Positions 10,467-26,182 of a DNA stretch of 46,306 nt are shown here, piece after piece. A program made the position numbers and the translations under genes. The stretch covers positions 1 to 46,306 of the forward strand of contig JAAUTZ010000019.1 in NCBI GenBank assembly GCA_012031225.1. The letters are read 5' to 3'. Within the stretch, counting starts at the first letter, position 1, and every line of letters starts with the position of its first letter. Under the pieces are notes generated by a model that was not told the origin of the DNA, ran no database searches, and worked only from the letters and a program-made list of their open reading frames with translations. The DNA is from Chloroflexaceae bacterium (GTDB lineage: Bacteria > Chloroflexota > Chloroflexia > Chloroflexales > Chloroflexaceae).

Positions 10467-11425
10467 ATGGAAACGCCCGATCTGCTCCCCACCCACACCG
10501 ATGCGCCCAATGCTAGGGCGGTTGGGCGCATCAGCAATCTTGCCGCCCTGCTAGGGCGTGATCTGGGGGCGGCCCTGCTGGGGTTACTGCTGCTGCTGCT
10601 CGTGCTCCTGCTCGAAACGTGGCTGGCGTGGCTTGCACCCGTGCGCCTAGTGCTAGGCTTCATCTCCCTCTTGTATGTCCCCGGCTACTGCCTGCAAGTT
10701 GCGCTCTTCCCGCGCCACGATGATCTGGATGGGTTAGAGCGATTCGGGTTGAGCTTAGGCCTCAGTGTCGCCGTGTTGCCCATCCTCGCCCTTGGGCTAC
10801 ACATCCTGCCGAGTGGCTTGAGCTTCCCCGCGTTAGTGCTGGGGCATGCCTTGCTCACCGTGTTGCTTGTTGGGGGGGCATCTGGCAACGCGCCCGCTTG
10901 CCCCATGCCACCCGCTACGCACCCGTGCTAGCACCGCGCCCGCGCCAGTGGTGGGCCCAGCGCACCCCGCTGGAACGCCGTAGCTACCGCTGGCTGGGGT
11001 TTGGTAGTGGGCTGGTGGTACTCTTGATTCTGCTCACCTTTGCTACACCGCCCGCGCCAGCCCCCACTGAGCTATATATGCTGGGGGCAGAAGGCCAAGC
11101 CGCTGCCTACCCGCGCCTTGTGCAGGTGGGCGTGAATCAGACAACCCCGATTGGCATTGCCAACCATACCGATCAGCCGCAGCACTACCGCCTTGAGGTG
11201 TGGGCAACGTGGGCGTGGCAGCCAGAAGCGTGGTGGACGCAACTTGCAGTGCAGGAAGGTATCACGCTGGCGGCGGGTGAGCAGCGTCTGATCCCAATTA
11301 CATGGCGCACAACGTGGGATGCTGATGATGTGCAGGTGTACTTCCGGCTCTACCCCGCCGATGCTCCGGCCGATGCGCCGCCCTACCGCGAGCTACTGCT
11401 GTGGCTGGATGTGCTGCCGGAGTAG
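10467..11425 (+). pseudogene. DUF1616 membrane protein gene split by a frameshift
   Basis: The first frame (10467-10931) encodes two DUF1616-type membrane segments with YVPGYCLQVALFPRHDDLDG, a family hallmark. The second frame, with its first ATG at 10898, continues to 11425 with a third helix and the DUF1616 outer domain (TELYMLGAEGQAAAYPR, then VGIANHT-like text). The break is at seven G residues, 10872-10878. Adding one G joins the frames as VGGGIWQRARLPHATRY, a natural continuation. So this is a sequence error, a true lesion, or a -1 slippage site. DUF1616 proteins accompany exopolysaccharide loci, as here; their function is not established. Confidence 0.8.
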
Positions 11426-12600: not shown

Positions 12601-13752
12601 CTAGTGCGCCACCGATTCGGCCCGCACTACGGATGTTGTCCGCACTGGCCGCGCACCGCCCGTTCCGGCTACAACGATCTGATCGCGCCCATTGCGCTTG
12701 GCGGCATACAGTGCGCTATCGGCGGCATACAGGCCCTCAGTAACCGTGTTGCCGTGTGTGGGAAAGGTGGCGACCCCAATCGAGACGGTGATCATGCCCA
12801 GTTGCTGACCACTATACATAAGGGCCAATTGCTGCACCGCCACCCGCAGCTGCTCAGCCCGTTCCACTGCTCGCTCTACGCCTAGCCCCGGCAGCACCAC
12901 CACAAACTCCTCGCCGCCCCAGCGTGCGGCAATGTCAGTTTCGGTGGTATTGCTGGCCAAGATCACCCCAACCGCCCGTAGGACGGCATCGCCAGCCGCA
13001 TGACCATAGGTATCATTGAACTGCTTGAAGTAGTCTATATCGAGCAGAAGTAGGCTGACGGGCGTGCTGTCTGCTTGGGTCCGTGCGAGCAACTGGCTGA
13101 GCTGATCATCGAGGTAACGCCGATTGTACAGCCCTGTCAGTGCATCGTGGAAGGCTTGATGTAGGGCGTGCTGAGCTTCGACGGCGAGATGTTCGGCGCG
13201 GTGCAGGCTGTGCAGCATCGTCTTCATCAAATTTAGGATCAGCGCACTGCTCATCGCGGTGAGCAAGATCAGGATAGCAATATCTATCGTCACGAGAATT
13301 GATTGGTAGGCTTGTTTCACGAAGAAGAACGAGAACGCGATCATTGCTGCAACCCACGTCCCCACGACAATTAAGCCCGCAACATCAAAGAACAAGATGG
13401 AAAGAATAATGCTCGCCTGCATAAACAGCAGGCTCGGCGGGCGCAAGCCATAGAGCGAGGCTTCAATCGAGCCGACCAAGAACATAATCCCAATCAGAGT
13501 GCCCACCCGCAGGATGTAGGGGATACGCGACACAAACGTAATCACGGCGACCCACAGATACGCCCCGACGTAGAACAGGGTGGGCATTGGCTGGCGGGTC
13601 TCGATCATTGTGAAAATATCAAGGGCAACCACTGGCAAGGCGAAAATGAGGACAATGCGGAGCAGCATTGTGAGGGCCTTTTGCCGCCACATAAAGAGGG
13701 GGCGGTCTGCGGCGTGGATATGCGGCTCGGTGTGATCCACAGCATACGACAT
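12601..13752 (-). CDS. Membrane GGDEF protein (diguanylate cyclase)
   Basis: 383 residues from the ATG at 13752; an ATG nine bases earlier sits only one base from the SD GAGAGGGA, so the inner start is preferred. The N-terminal half has about six membrane segments beginning RQKALTMLLRIVLIFALPVV. A GGDEF domain starts near residue 200 (DALTGLYNRRYLDDQL), with the LLDIDYFKQFNDTYGH metal-binding region and an active GGEEF motif near 279. The inhibitory RxxD site five residues before it is replaced by TETD, so product feedback is probably absent. It should make c-di-GMP in response to a membrane signal. The sensor half is related to that of the adjacent STAS gene. Confidence 0.88.
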   Translation of the reverse strand: MSYAVDHTEPHIHAADRPLFMWRQKALTMLLRIVLIFALPVVALDIFTMIETRQPMPTLFYVGAYLWVAVITFVSRIPYILRVGTLIGIMFLVGSIEASLYGLRPPSLLFMQASIILSILFFDVAGLIVVGTWVAAMIAFSFFFVKQAYQSILVTIDIAILILLTAMSSALILNLMKTMLHSLHRAEHLAVEAQHALHQAFHDALTGLYNRRYLDDQLSQLLARTQADSTPVSLLLLDIDYFKQFNDTYGHAAGDAVLRAVGVILASNTTETDIAARWGGEEFVVVLPGLGVERAVERAEQLRVAVQQLALMYSGQQLGMITVSIGVATFPTHGNTVTEGLYAADSALYAAKRNGRDQIVVAGTGGARPVRTTSVVRAESVAH

Positions 13753-13864
13753 TCGTAGCATTCCCTCTCAGGATGTGGAGAAAGCATTCAAGCCTTATGA
13801 CTGTACTCTTGTTGCAGGTGAGCCAAGAGTTTGGAAAAAACGAGGGCACTTAAGATCCGCTATG

Positions 13865-13905
13865 GATACCTGTTGAAACATCCCCCTTGTAATATAACAG
13901 GTATC
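13865..13905. promoter_or_regulatory. 10-bp inverted repeat across the GGDEF promoter
   Basis: GATACCTGTT (13865-13874) and AACAGGTATC (13896-13905) are perfect complements with arm centres 31 bp apart, about three helical turns. One arm lies in the spacer of the minus-strand promoter and the other just after the predicted transcription start. Since a transcript from that promoter would carry only the second arm, a DNA operator is more likely than an RNA hairpin. Confidence 0.6.
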
Positions 13906-13919
13906 TGCTGCGAAAACAA
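13891..13919 (-). promoter_or_regulatory. Promoter of the GGDEF gene
   Basis: On the minus strand TTGTTT (13919-13914) and TATATT (13896-13891) are spaced by 17 bases. The predicted start near 13884 leaves a leader of about 130 bases. It overlaps the inverted repeat described at 13865-13905. Confidence 0.55.
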
Positions 13920-13931
13920 GGCATTTCCGGA

Positions 13932-15073
13932 TCAATAACGCACCGCGGGGATGCTCTCAGCTACACCCGCTTGGAGGGTATTGTATGTGCGTATTCCAGT
14001 GAGCGCAACCCCCAACTGCACCAGCGCGTGGGCCGTGCGAGGCTGGATGCCGGTCAGCACCACCTGCGCCCCTAGCAACTGCACCCCGCGCAAGGTCTCG
14101 AGCAATGCCTGCGCCACCGCCCGATCCAACTCAGCAATACCCGTAATATCGAGGATCACCAGCCGTGCCTGATGGGCCGCAACCTGCTCCAGTAAGCCGC
14201 CCGTAATCTGCACGACCCGCTCGGCATCGAGGCTCCCCACCAAGGGCAACACGAGGGTATGTTCGGTGAGTGGCAACACCGGCAGACTCAGTTCATGGAT
14301 CAGGGCTTGCTGCTGCTGCACCACAGCGAGTTGCTGCTGCACTTCCTGCCGGGCTTGCTCAGCTTCGGCGTGGGCGGCCACCGCAGCATCGCGGGCTTGC
14401 ACCATTGCTGCCTGTTGCTCTGCCAGTGCCACCGCGTTTTGCTCCGCGTGGTGCTGGGCGGCTTGGGCCACTAGGGCCAGCTCTTCGGCTTGGCGCAGGC
14501 TAGCGAGGAGCGTGTGGGTGAGCGTCAACGTGAGTGTGACGATCATTGCGGTAAGAAGTACCAGCAACGCCAGATCGGTGATCTGAATCGTCAGCGCACG
14601 CGGCTGGCTCGTGGTTGCAATCGTTAACACCACCGTTGCGAAGGCAAGCCCCCCGCAATCAGCGCACCACGCAGATCGAGAAAGAGTGCGGATAGCACTA
14701 CAAACGTGAACATGAACAGCATGCCGCCTACCACAATGCCGTGCGAGAGCAGTTCGCTGGCCCCAATCAGATACAGCAAGCTGATCAGATACAGCACCCG
14801 CACCAGATTGGGCACACGCGGCACAGCCACCAACCCAACCAGCACAACGTAGCCGATGGCATACATGATGGTGGGGATGATCTCTTGCTGCTGTACCGCG
14901 TTGTAGCTATCGAGGGCCAGCGCGGGCAATGCCAACACCAACGCCACCCGGAGCAGATTGAGCAGGGCTTGCTGCCGCCACTGCTGCAACGGCTGCAGTG
15001 ATGTTGATGGATCGGGTGCGGGCGGCAATGGTTTCTCAGGGCGGGTCTGATGGTGAACTTGGTTGAGCTTCAC
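13932..15073 (-). pseudogene. Membrane-STAS signalling gene split by a frameshift
   Basis: The 5' frame (15073 down to 14624) encodes a proline-rich start and several membrane segments (WRQQALLNLLRVALVLALPA). The 3' frame (to 13932) continues with the last membrane segment, an Ala/Gln-rich coiled coil and a STAS domain (LVLPLVGSLDAERVVQI; LVILDITGIAELDRAVAQAL) like RsbR-type anti-anti-sigma proteins. The break is at six C residues, about 14649-14654 (G run on the coding strand). One added G restores AGGLAFATVVLTIATT across it. The joined protein would be about 380 residues. The sensor half matches that of the downstream GGDEF protein, so both probably respond to related signals. Confidence 0.8.
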
Positions 15074-15880: not shown

Positions 15881-16199
15881 TGATCCTTTTTCCTCCGCTA
15901 GAACCGTCTGTTATCTGTACATAATCGAATTTACCCGTACTATTGTAGCGATGCACCCAAGCCTTGTCAAGCGGATACGGCTCCTGACACGGGCTTTTTA
16001 TCTCTATTCTAGACCTGATGGGAATGAGAATTATGCCATTTAGATCAGCCCACTCTGATCATCAGGGTCCATATTGCTGAGAAGCCTGCAACGTCCTCGC
16101 AGGCAATTGCGTATTGCTTGGTAGAGTGGCGTATCATACCGGCATAAGGAGCATGATGAATTCATGCTGAGCGCAGCTTGATAGAAAGGATTGCAAGGT
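15881..16199. other. Intergenic region between auracyanin and DUF3592 genes
   Basis: This stretch holds the auracyanin promoter, a small hairpin with 6-bp arms (GCCTGC at 16084-16089 and GCAGGC at 16099-16104), and the SD GAAAGGA (16184-16190) of the plus-strand gene. A weak TTGCGT/TATCAT pair (16107/16132) with a 19-base spacer may drive that gene. I see no coding region. Confidence 0.5.
15942..15970 (-). promoter_or_regulatory. Strong promoter of the auracyanin gene
   Basis: On the minus strand TTGACA (15970-15965) and TACAAT (15947-15942) are separated by exactly 17 bases. The predicted start near 15935 gives a leader of about 55 bases. It is among the best consensus matches in the window. 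Confidence 0.8.
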
Positions 16200-16982
16200 A
16201 TGTCTGATACGGTGTTCGTCCTCAATCCGGACCACCGCGCTGTCGCGCACGGGCAGCAGCCCTACATCCTTGATGGTGCGGGTGTTTCGGTGTTGAGCTT
16301 GATTGCCCCCTTGTTCTTGCTCGTTGGCATTCTGATTAGCAGTGCGCTGATCCCACTCACCCGCCAAGCGTGGCACGAATACGACACGCTCATGGCAGAG
16401 ATGCAAAGCGGCACAGCGCAGGTGCTAGACAAACGCATCAGCTACGATGATGAGGGCGATGCTAGTTACTTCGTGAGCTACATCTTCAGCCACCCCCTGC
16501 CCAATGGCGAACCCTATCAATATGAGGCTACGGCAAGCGTCAGCCGCAGCCAGTACGAGCAGCTTGAATATGGGCAGCAACTGCCGATTGTGTTTGCCCC
16601 AAGCGACCCGACCATCTCGCGCCTCAATCCGCCCCACATTGCCGAGCCGATCCTTGCCACCATCTTTACGTTTGTGTGGCTGGTGGGCTGGAATGGCGTG
16701 GCGGGCTACTTCAGCTACCGCACCGTGCGCGATTGGCTAGGGCAGCGGGCATTGCGGCGGGGGCAGCTGCTGTATGGCACGCTGACGAAGATCACCGGCG
16801 TTGCCGAATCCACGCTGAATTACAAAATCACGGTGGACTACACCTTCACCGCCCCCGATGGCACACCAATCAGCGATAATGCCAGCCATTATAACAGCTA
16901 CCGGCCCGCTACACCCTTGCCCCCTGTTGGTACGCGGGTGGCAATCTGGTATGGCAATCGGCGTACCTATCGGCTGCTTTGA
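16200..16982 (+). CDS. DUF3592-like membrane protein, paralogue 1
   Basis: 260 residues from the ATG at 16200, placed nine bases after the SD GAAAGGA; the upstream TTG at 16191 is less likely. Two membrane helices flank an outer beta-rich domain of the DUF3592 type: about residues 32-58 (SLIAPLFLLVGILISSALI) and 145-165 (TIFTFVWLVGWNGVAGYF). The central part has AQVLDKRISYDDEG, YFVSYIFSHPLPNGEPYQYE and LPIVFAPSDPTISRLNPP. A second similar half follows the second helix and ends GTRVAIWYGNRRTYRLL. Function is unknown. It is the most divergent of three paralogues in a row. Confidence 0.75.
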   Translation: MSDTVFVLNPDHRAVAHGQQPYILDGAGVSVLSLIAPLFLLVGILISSALIPLTRQAWHEYDTLMAEMQSGTAQVLDKRISYDDEGDASYFVSYIFSHPLPNGEPYQYEATASVSRSQYEQLEYGQQLPIVFAPSDPTISRLNPPHIAEPILATIFTFVWLVGWNGVAGYFSYRTVRDWLGQRALRRGQLLYGTLTKITGVAESTLNYKITVDYTFTAPDGTPISDNASHYNSYRPATPLPPVGTRVAIWYGNRRTYRLL

Positions 16983-17036
16983 CCTAGAACGACCCACGTT
17001 ATGGTAATGAACTCAACCAGAAAGGATGCCCGCCCA

Positions 17037-17858
17037 ATGACAACCCAACCAATCCCTGAAGAGTATTTCACACCTGATGGAGTCTTTGTCCTTAAGCCCG
17101 ATTACCGCGAGGTGGCGATGGGGTTGAAGCCCTACCGCATCAAGGGGCAAGGATGTGCATTCTTTATACTCCTTTTTCCGTTAACTTTTTTCCTGATCGG
17201 CTTGGTGGTATCGTGTGGCTTATTGTTGCCTAGTGCAGTGGGTGAGTGGAATAGCTATTTCCGCTTGCGCGAGCAGCAAGCAACCACTACCGCACAGGTT
17301 GTAGATAAGAACTCCAGACGTGATGACGATAGCACAACGTACTACATCACCTATGCTTTCACCCACCCTGATCCCAATGGGGAGCCGCAACAATACACCA
17401 ACGAGGTAAGCGTTAGTGCAGGTGAGTATGGGCGATTGGACAGAGGGCAGGCGATTACGGTGTACTTTGTGCCCGATGATCCGACCATTTCCCAAGCGAC
17501 ACCACCCGCGATCTCCGATCCCATTAAAGTATCCCTCTTCAGCTTGCTCTGGGCGGGATTTTGGCTTAGTATAAGCGGCTTCATGACGTTCGTGGGTTTC
17601 CATAGCATACGCCGTGATGATCACCTTACAAAACATGGGCAACTGCTGCACGGAACCCTGACCCACATCAAAGGCGACACAGACTCGGACAATGACTACA
17701 TGGTGAAAGCCCGCTACCAGTTTGAGTCACCACTAGGCATACCGCTAGAGGGTAAGGATGAAGCGACCCGTAATCACCTTAAAAGCTATTCCTTACCGCC
17801 GCTCGGCACGCCGGTTGCGGTGTGGTATGCGGATGATACGAACTACACGTTGCTGTAA
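17037..17858 (+). CDS. DUF3592-like membrane protein, paralogue 2
   Basis: 273 residues from the ATG at 17037, ten bases after an AGAAAGGA SD that is repeated with its flanks before paralogue 3. It has the same layout as paralogue 1: the start IPEEYFTPDGVFVLKPDYRE, a helix near 45-70, the outer domain with YYITYAFTHPDPNGEPQQYT and ITVYFVPDDPTISQATPP, a second helix near 170-190, and a second domain ending VAVWYADDTNYTLL. The last 255 bases are almost the same as those of paralogue 3, so the two arose by recent tandem duplication or are kept alike by gene conversion. Function is unknown. Confidence 0.78.
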   Translation: MTTQPIPEEYFTPDGVFVLKPDYREVAMGLKPYRIKGQGCAFFILLFPLTFFLIGLVVSCGLLLPSAVGEWNSYFRLREQQATTTAQVVDKNSRRDDDSTTYYITYAFTHPDPNGEPQQYTNEVSVSAGEYGRLDRGQAITVYFVPDDPTISQATPPAISDPIKVSLFSLLWAGFWLSISGFMTFVGFHSIRRDDHLTKHGQLLHGTLTHIKGDTDSDNDYMVKARYQFESPLGIPLEGKDEATRNHLKSYSLPPLGTPVAVWYADDTNYTLL

Positions 17859-17887
17859 GTGACCCAACCAGAAAGGATGCCCGCCCA

Positions 17888-18706
17888 ATGGCTACCAAAC
17901 CAATCCCTGAAGAGTATTTCACGCCTGATGGGACCTTTCTCCTTTACCCGACGAACCGCGAGGTGGCGCTGGGGCTGAAGCCCTACCAATCGCACGAGCG
18001 GGGATGTATGACATTAGTTTTACTCGTTATGTTGGCTTCCTTTTTGATGGCACTAGGAAGCAGTGCATTTTTTTTGCCTGATACAGTAGATACTTGGAAC
18101 AATTACTCTCGCTTGAGCACCCAACAAGCAACGACTGAAGCGCAGATTGTAGATAAGAACTCCAGACGTGGTAACGCTAGCTCAACGTACTACATCACCT
18201 ATGCTTTCACCCACCCTGATCCCAATGGGGAGCTGCAACAATACACCAACAGGGTCAGCGTCAATAGTGATACGTATGAACAATTGGAAATGGGACAGGC
18301 GATCACGGTGTACTTTGTGCCCGATGACCCGACCATTTCCCAAGCGACACCGCCTTCAATCCGTGATCCGCTTATTACATCGCTCACTACTTTGATCTTT
18401 TGGGGAGCGTGGGTCGGTATCAGCGGCATCATGACGTTCGGGGCTTTCCAGAGCATACGCCGTGCTGATCACCTTACAAAACATGGGCAACTGCTGCACG
18501 GAACCTTAACCCACATCGAAGGCGACACAGACTCGGACAATGACTACATTGTGAAAGCCCGCTACCAGTTTCAGTCACCACTAGGCATACCGCTAGAGGG
18601 TAAGGATGAAGCGACCCGCAATCACCTTAAAAGCTATTCCTTACCGCCGCTCGGCACGCCAGTTGCGGTGTGGTATACGGATGATACGAACTACATCGTG
18701 CTGTAA
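17888..18706 (+). CDS. DUF3592-like membrane protein, paralogue 3
   Basis: 272 residues, starting 29 bases after paralogue 2 with the same upstream sequence around its SD. The start (IPEEYFTPDGTFLLYPTNRE), the outer domain and the C-terminal half are very close to paralogue 2. The first membrane helix (TLVLLVMLASFLMALGSSAF) and the second (LTTLIFWGAWVGISGIMTFG) have diverged. That pattern suggests the membrane parts are under different selection from the soluble domain, or that conversion is limited to the shared blocks. Function is unknown. Confidence 0.78.
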   Translation: MATKPIPEEYFTPDGTFLLYPTNREVALGLKPYQSHERGCMTLVLLVMLASFLMALGSSAFFLPDTVDTWNNYSRLSTQQATTEAQIVDKNSRRGNASSTYYITYAFTHPDPNGELQQYTNRVSVNSDTYEQLEMGQAITVYFVPDDPTISQATPPSIRDPLITSLTTLIFWGAWVGISGIMTFGAFQSIRRADHLTKHGQLLHGTLTHIEGDTDSDNDYIVKARYQFQSPLGIPLEGKDEATRNHLKSYSLPPLGTPVAVWYTDDTNYIVL

Positions 18707-24527: not shown

Positions 24528-24604
24528 GCGCTATCAGAAGCAGGCGCGGAGTGTGTCTGGCACGTCATTCACCGCAAATATCCCCCCAAGAGAGGATGAG
24601 TGTT

Positions 24605-26182
24605 ATGGCTCTGGATACCATATTTGCCCGACAACCAACAAATCCCTACACCCAGCACGAGATGCGTCGCTGGCGTGAGCAGGTTGTGCTGCTGACCTCG
24701 CGGATCACCTTCTGGCTCGCGCTGCCACTCAATATCTTCGGAACCCTGAATCTGTTGCTGCTGCAAGCCTACTGGCGCATCCCGCTCAATTTTATACTCG
24801 TGATGCTCTTAGGGGTGATTGCCTATTATCCGGCACTCAGTTTCCGCCGACGGGTGGTGCTGTTGTTCAGCATATATTATCTCACGGCTACAATCTGGCT
24901 CGCCTTTAGCGGGCTGGCCGGAATTGGGCGCAGCTTGTTTTTCTTGATAATTGTGTTAGCCGCGCTGATCTTTGAAGGGCGCACGCTCTTCGTCTTTCTG
25001 GCGAGCGTCTTGCTCACACAGGCATTCATCTATAGCGCATTCTTTTTTGGGATTATCCCGATTCCCTACACAGTGAATCCAGAGACGATATTTACCCCAT
25101 TTTCGCTAAGCTTGGTGTGGGTTTCACAGCTGATTCTCTCGATTGCCGTCGCAGTGGCGATTATCTCCACGCTCAATACCCTGCGCGAGAATCTGTACAA
25201 AGTCTATCTCGCCGAAACCGAACGTGTCCTTCAAGCGAGTGAAGAACGCTATCGGGCAATCTGGGAGACAGCGACAGACGCAATTGTGGTAGTTGATCGG
25301 CAGGGGCTGATCCGCTCGGCGAATCCGTCTTACTACGCCACCTACGGGTTCACGCCTGAACAAGTGATTGAGCAGCCATTTACGGTGCTGCTACCAGAGA
25401 GCAATCAGCAACCCGCATGGCCTGCATACACGCACATGTTCACGGAGGAGCACCCTGCACTGCGGCACGAAATCGTGTTGCGCCACGCCGATGGCAGTGA
25501 ACGCACGATAGAGGCGCATCTCGCGTTCCTGATGGAAGCTGACGAGCGGGTCGCGCTGATTGGGGTGCTGCGTGATATTACCGAACGCAAGGCAATGGAG
25601 CGCGAACTCCACCAATCCAATGCGTGGCTGCGTGAGCAGTCCATCCGCGATCCGTTGACGCATCTACACAATCGGCGTTACCTTGATGAACGCTTGCCGC
25701 AAGAACTGCAACGCGCAGCGCAGCAGCAGCTTCCGGTGGGCATCATTGTGCTTGACATTGATCGCTTCAAGAACGTCAATGATACTTATGGACACGATTG
25801 CGGCGATGAACTCCTGCAAACAATCGGAGCGTTTCTGCGTGGCAGGATGCGTAGCGAGGATATTGTCTGTCGCTATGGGGGCGAGGAGTTTGTCATTGTG
25901 CTGCTGGGTGCCACCACAACTGCAACCCACACACGGGCTGAGGATTTGCGGCTAGGACTGCATACCTTAGTGGTACAGAATGGGCCGTGCCAGATTGCCC
26001 AGATCACCGCATCGTTTGGGGTGGCGGTATGCCCGCAGCACGGCACATCCGCCGATGCTCTCTTTCGCGCTGCTGATCAGGCGTTATACGCTGCCAAGCA
26101 GGGCGGACGAGATCAAGTGGTGATTGCCCCCCTACCGCCACCAAGCACTATCGCTGCTAGCCCTGCTGCGGATGGCTCGTGA
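24605..26182 (+). CDS. Membrane PAS-GGDEF protein (diguanylate cyclase)
   Basis: 525 residues from the ATG at 24605, nine bases after an AGAGG SD. The N-terminus (to about 200) has five to six membrane helices starting with RRWREQVVLLTSRITFWLAL. A PAS domain follows near 215-335 (YRAIWETATDAIVVVDRQ, then VLRDITERKAMERE). The GGDEF domain starts near 348 (DPLTHLHNRRYLDERL), with IIVLDIDRFKNVNDTYGH, and GGEEF near 424. An RxxD inhibitory site (RSED) sits five residues before GGEEF, so c-di-GMP feedback is expected, unlike the other cyclase in the window. Its 3' end overlaps the convergent epimerase gene by 26 bases. Confidence 0.9.
   Translation: MALDTIFARQPTNPYTQHEMRRWREQVVLLTSRITFWLALPLNIFGTLNLLLLQAYWRIPLNFILVMLLGVIAYYPALSFRRRVVLLFSIYYLTATIWLAFSGLAGIGRSLFFLIIVLAALIFEGRTLFVFLASVLLTQAFIYSAFFFGIIPIPYTVNPETIFTPFSLSLVWVSQLILSIAVAVAIISTLNTLRENLYKVYLAETERVLQASEERYRAIWETATDAIVVVDRQGLIRSANPSYYATYGFTPEQVIEQPFTVLLPESNQQPAWPAYTHMFTEEHPALRHEIVLRHADGSERTIEAHLAFLMEADERVALIGVLRDITERKAMERELHQSNAWLREQSIRDPLTHLHNRRYLDERLPQELQRAAQQQLPVGIIVLDIDRFKNVNDTYGHDCGDELLQTIGAFLRGRMRSEDIVCRYGGEEFVIVLLGATTTATHTRAEDLRLGLHTLVVQNGPCQIAQITASFGVAVCPQHGTSADALFRAADQALYAAKQGGRDQVVIAPLPPPSTIAASPAADGS

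Follow-up and report, generated by a model that had tools for sequence, protein, structure and literature searches.

The locus analysed here raises the question of whether one membrane sensor has been joined to different outputs, and whether such exchange links c-di-GMP with a STAS pathway. The window, by which we mean the whole 46,306-nucleotide stretch of Chloroflexaceae DNA that was analysed (contig JAAUTZ010000019.1 of assembly GCA_012031225.1), encodes a GGDEF protein, a neighbouring STAS protein and, farther along, a PAS-GGDEF protein, at positions where a preliminary description had placed them and where open reading frames were found. The STAS protein is not a single reading frame in the assembled sequence: a one-base frameshift splits the gene in two. 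The features are as follows.

12601-13761, minus strand: MASE11-GGDEF protein, 386 amino acids, a predicted membrane-bound diguanylate cyclase
13192-13737, minus strand: MASE11 sensor of the GGDEF protein (PF20969, 29.8 bits; clade profile, 132.8 bits; six hydrophobic segments)
12679-13155, minus strand: GGDEF domain of the MASE11-GGDEF protein (PF00990, 170.7 bits)
13932-15073, minus strand: MASE11-STAS gene, in two frames as assembled (14624-15073 and 13932-14633)
14645-15028, minus strand: MASE11 sensor of the STAS protein, the portion ahead of the frameshift (PF20969, 58 bits)
14649-14654, minus strand: run of six G at which the reading frame of the MASE11-STAS gene breaks
13971-14273, minus strand: RsbR-type STAS domain (PF01740; PDB matches to RsbR), with R and A at the positions of Listeria RsbR T175 and T209
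24551-26182, plus strand: MASE11-related PAS-GGDEF protein, 543 amino acids, with an alternative ATG start at 24605
24623-25204, plus strand: MASE11-related sensor of the PAS-GGDEF protein (clade profiles; below Pfam detection)
25244-25579, plus strand: PAS domain of the PAS-GGDEF protein (PF00989)
25643-26116, plus strand: GGDEF domain of the PAS-GGDEF protein (PF00990, 161.5 bits)

Three proteins share a MASE11-type membrane domain

The GGDEF, STAS and PAS-GGDEF proteins begin with membrane domains that are homologous to one another. Pfam scans identified the family as MASE11 (PF20969), which matches the GGDEF protein at 29.8 bits and the STAS protein at 58 bits, both above the curated cut-off of 27.3; the sensor, for which no named domain had been recognized, therefore has a name. 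The PAS-GGDEF protein, described earlier as more distant, had no match to Pfam MASE11 at E ≤ 1 and falls in another MASE11 subclade, and we term its sensor MASE11-related and do not count it as a Pfam member. An HMM of 31 related domains, trained with the PAS-GGDEF protein left out, gave 102 bits to this sensor and at best 7 bits across 500 shuffled sequences. With an HMM trained after every sequence from the window's genus had been removed, the STAS, PAS-GGDEF and GGDEF sensors scored 115, 110 and 92 bits, respectively, and nothing among 105 unrelated membrane ORFs and 600 shuffled sequences exceeded 8.8 bits. Because these scores lie far above both kinds of control, the three regions can be regarded as homologous with more force than the preliminary description had claimed from short motifs. 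The LALP that it gave for the GGDEF protein reads IFALP.

Hydropathy analysis predicted six segments in each of the GGDEF and PAS-GGDEF sensors. An AlphaFold2 (AF2) model of the GGDEF-protein sensor, made from an alignment of low depth, was all-helical with a pLDDT of 80, and a Foldseek search with this model returned no structural relative at E ≤ 0.001 and Rv1625c/Cya only at an E value of 2.7. The window's genome contains a fourth MASE11 member on contig C120, whose closest relative in a congener (genome G022) is a 985-amino-acid kinase-like protein.

Both GGDEF-containing proteins carry the GG(D/E)EF active-site motif (RWGGEEF or RYGGEEF) and the motif for metal and substrate (DIDYFK or DIDRFK). 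In the MASE11-GGDEF protein the GGEEF site is complete, and the inhibitory RxxD site reads TETD and lacks its arginine; the PAS-GGDEF protein keeps this site as RSED. Like other MASE-type membrane diguanylate cyclases, the MASE11-GGDEF protein has a multi-TM N-terminus that runs directly into the GGDEF domain, but it differs from them in having MASE11 as its sensor and in lacking the arginine of RxxD.

MASE11 carries many outputs in Chloroflexota

Of 41 genomes of the family, 28 had MASE11 domains above the cut-off, as did 57 of the 399 genomes in a phylum sample. A Pfam domain scan of 142 Chloroflexota MASE11 proteins identified HATPase (30 proteins), STAS (18), HD_5 (8), GGDEF (4) and class III cyclase (1) outputs, and GAF domains in many proteins, often without a recognized enzyme output. 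The three outputs of the preliminary description are thus a sample of a larger set, to which histidine kinases, HD-GYP and GAF domains also belong. The window's GGDEF and STAS proteins resemble the rest of the family in joining a multi-TM input to one of many outputs, whereas the PAS-GGDEF sensor stands apart in escaping Pfam detection. Among 48 long MASE11 proteins, 7 contained HisKA_7TM, and one protein (L133:3013-6465) has tandem membrane input domains, HisKA_7TM followed by MASE11, and then GAF domains and HD_5. Tandem arrays of MASE11 proteins of approximately 550-650 amino acids, mostly with GAF domains and with no recognized enzyme output, were seen in Chloroflexota family f13 (L125, L129, L137, L138 and L139).

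Alignments of the MASE11 family contain only two or three nearly invariant columns. Such low conservation would suit a domain that serves solely as a membrane anchor, without sensing, so that swaps would merely relocate outputs to the membrane. We consider this unlikely, given that a pattern of WR..L, R and GxxGxG recurs in MASE11 and that the domain is attached to allosterically controlled outputs (kinases, GGDEF and HD-GYP). We favour the reading of MASE11 as a six-TM membrane-associated input domain.

Outputs were exchanged on one sensor lineage

We built a tree of 89 MASE11 domains, with outputs labelled by simple motifs. The sensors of the window STAS protein, its G022 orthologue, the window GGDEF protein and one G022 GGDEF protein form a single clade (support 100/99). 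The PAS-GGDEF sensor groups with kinases in another clade (100/97). The sensors belong to a known MASE family, but those of the STAS and GGDEF proteins are nearest relatives and not unconnected members of it. Output changed at least 23 times on this tree, compared with a possible minimum of 3 and with 42 for shuffled labels. The domain scans and this tree support the earlier suggestion that outputs are exchanged on a common membrane sensor.

The output domains point the same way. In a tree of 79 RsbR-type STAS domains, which rests on 120 columns and has many unresolved forks and some long branches, the window and G022 STAS domains nest among 45 STAS domains that lack MASE11, and the 18 other MASE11-STAS proteins, from Chloroflexus, Roseiflexus and their relatives, fall in another clade (100/95). 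A single origin of all 20 MASE11-STAS domains was rejected (p-AU 0.0003). Because the window's STAS domain is separate from those of the other MASE11-STAS proteins and a single origin is rejected, MASE11 and an RsbR-type STAS domain were fused at least twice; the window pair arose when outputs were exchanged within a single lineage of sensors. The other STAS clade, which has LETP as its signature, also holds proteins with other, unnamed membrane N-termini, so that exchange runs both ways. These include L247:2560-4925, L248:3644-5826, L252:542-1516 and L244:2791-3861, for whose N-termini no Pfam sensor family scored above the cut-off. In Roseiflexus, one membrane-STAS gene of the LETP clade directly precedes a MASE11-STAS gene.

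The STAS domain is of the stressosome RsbR type

The best PDB matches of the window STAS domain were RsbR chains of stressosomes, with E values of about 1e-21 and Listeria RsbR as the most similar. In Listeria RsbR, T175 and T209 are the sites phosphorylated by RsbT (PMC6614362). At these positions the window and G022 proteins have R and A, the sole such pair among the 79 STAS domains; both threonines are kept in 14 of the 20 MASE11-STAS proteins, and one or both are missing in a small number of further domains. As both phospho-acceptors are missing in the window's genus, normal RsbT control of this STAS subunit is unlikely. Many of the 26 STAS matches in the window's genome are RsbR-type, and an RsbS-like gene (VVDSF) lies next to an RsbT-like ATPase gene on contig C84, away from the window STAS gene. 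When a Chloroflexus-type MASE11-STAS protein was modelled with AF2, at a low pTM of 0.42, a single helix, residues 167-243, ran from the last TM segment into the STAS domain, and the STAS part of the model matches stressosome structures.

MASE11-STAS is thus likely to be a membrane-embedded RsbR-type input subunit whose phospho-control was lost in the window's genus, as judged from sequence. It shares with the RsbR co-antagonists (Bacillus RsbRA, Listeria RsbR1 and YtvA) a C-terminal RsbR-type STAS domain behind an N-terminal sensor and helical linker, and a genome that also has RsbS- and RsbT-like genes, but its sensor is a multi-TM MASE11 domain and not a non-haem globin or LOV domain, and the window copy lacks both phospho-threonines. 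It is difficult to see how an RsbR embedded in the membrane would be accommodated in a closed cage of 60 subunits. It is possible, and we offer this only tentatively, that integral-membrane RsbR proteins evolved at least twice in Chloroflexales, once in the LETP clade, with its MASE11 and unnamed membrane N-termini, and once in the window's genus, and that they hold stressosome-type complexes at the membrane and pass membrane signals directly to them, with the genus version a non-phosphorylatable and permanently set tether. Neither MASE11-STAS nor an integral-membrane RsbR was described in the literature searched, which lay mostly outside subscription journals.

The STAS gene is probably intact in the organism

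The one-base frameshift lies at the G6 run 14649-14654 and leaves the two halves of the MASE11-STAS gene in different frames. The G022 orthologue (L051:2620-3783) is intact, with 388 amino acids and 83% identity over the STAS half, and the codons past the frameshift have a dN/dS of 0.14, which indicates purifying selection. A second window gene (10467-11425) is also broken, at a G7 run (10872-10878), and is a single 323-amino-acid ORF in G022. Since two genes are broken at G runs and both are intact in the congener, homopolymer errors in the assembly are likely, and we consider such an error more likely than a pseudogene as the source of the STAS frameshift.

In the one-contig genome G006, a MASE11-STAS gene (L058:6871-7960, minus strand) is broken by a two-base deletion and is probably a true pseudogene, so that loss of a MASE11-STAS gene is possible. 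If the window gene had decayed in the same way, as its own frameshift would allow, only the GGDEF and PAS-GGDEF proteins would function here; the selection seen downstream of the break and the second G-run break in a gene that is intact in the congener make this improbable. A programmed frameshift was discarded, because the G006 break lies elsewhere and is a two-base deletion, which leaves no common slip site.

The pairing of STAS and GGDEF genes is not conserved

The STAS gene lies upstream of the GGDEF gene on the same strand, separated by a gap of 170 bp. On either side of the GGDEF gene, G022 and the window are collinear (window 17736-13925 and 12550-6340), but G022 has 143 bp at the site where the window has 1375 bp with the GGDEF gene. 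The nearest MASE11-GGDEF protein of G022 is 47% identical and adjoins aroC, and no GGDEF gene stands at the corresponding aroC site of the window's genome. No GGDEF neighbour was found in the other MASE11-STAS loci within a few kilobases on either side, as far as the sequence extended. A conserved STAS-GGDEF operon was rejected on this synteny, and the earlier suggestion of a link between c-di-GMP and a STAS pathway is not supported. The idea that a mobile element had brought in the GGDEF gene was also rejected: there were no notable terminal repeats, the 170-bp gap held a single inverted repeat of 10 bp, and scans for promoters and terminators gave results near chance level. Elsewhere in the window, at 16191-18706, are three tandem paralogous ORFs (263, 285 and 272 amino acids) whose congener counterparts are 35-89% identical.

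Coupling of this kind has precedents in other bacteria, but none for this gene pair. Control of a diguanylate cyclase by RsbT in Moorella is cited in PMC12143880 and PMC4976288, and Pseudomonas partner-switching pathways are reported to be connected with diguanylate cyclases (PMC7647112, PMC6482189). The window's organism resembles Moorella thermoacetica in having a stressosome-type pathway and a GGDEF protein together, but the GGDEF protein here lacks the RsbU-type N-terminus of the Moorella diguanylate cyclase MtG and the gene pairing is not conserved. That the two neighbours work as one unit, in which paired membrane sensors couple STAS partner switching with c-di-GMP synthesis, is quite improbable: the shared strand, the short spacing, the sister sensors and the analogy with the Moorella stressosome and the Pseudomonas Sia and Hsb pathways speak for it, but the congener lacks the GGDEF gene at this locus and has its relative beside aroC, the other loci examined have none, and MASE11 stands where MtG carries its RsbU-type N-terminus.

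A model for an interchangeable membrane sensor

We consider it probable that MASE11 is an interchangeable membrane sensor of Chloroflexota, one lineage of which was joined to both GGDEF and an RsbR-type STAS domain in the window's genus. The last TM helix of MASE11 would extend as a cytoplasmic helix into the output, as modelled for the Chloroflexus-type protein, and a signal arising in or at the membrane may pass through this helix to dimeric outputs. Joined to GGDEF, the genus lineage would form a predicted membrane diguanylate cyclase; joined to the STAS domain, it would form a predicted membrane-embedded input subunit for a stressosome or a partner-switching pathway, and other parts of the genome encode the RsbS- and RsbT-like partners. 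The PAS-GGDEF protein, with its more distant MASE11, would have acquired its GGDEF domain separately. The STAS and GGDEF proteins may respond to a related signal at the membrane, each through its own pathway, and their adjacency would be recent or incidental.

Exchangeable sensors on coiled-coil linkers have been proposed for phosphatases, kinases and diguanylate cyclases (PMC12143880), and the locus, where the exchange of outputs within a single sensor lineage is well supported, fits this picture of a modular toolkit of sensors. The locus also bears on how signals from the membrane are conveyed to the cytosolic stressosome. For Listeria, Prli42, a separate membrane mini-protein, has been invoked (PMC6614362); a multi-TM sensor fused to an RsbR-type STAS domain would be a natural way to achieve this with a single protein.
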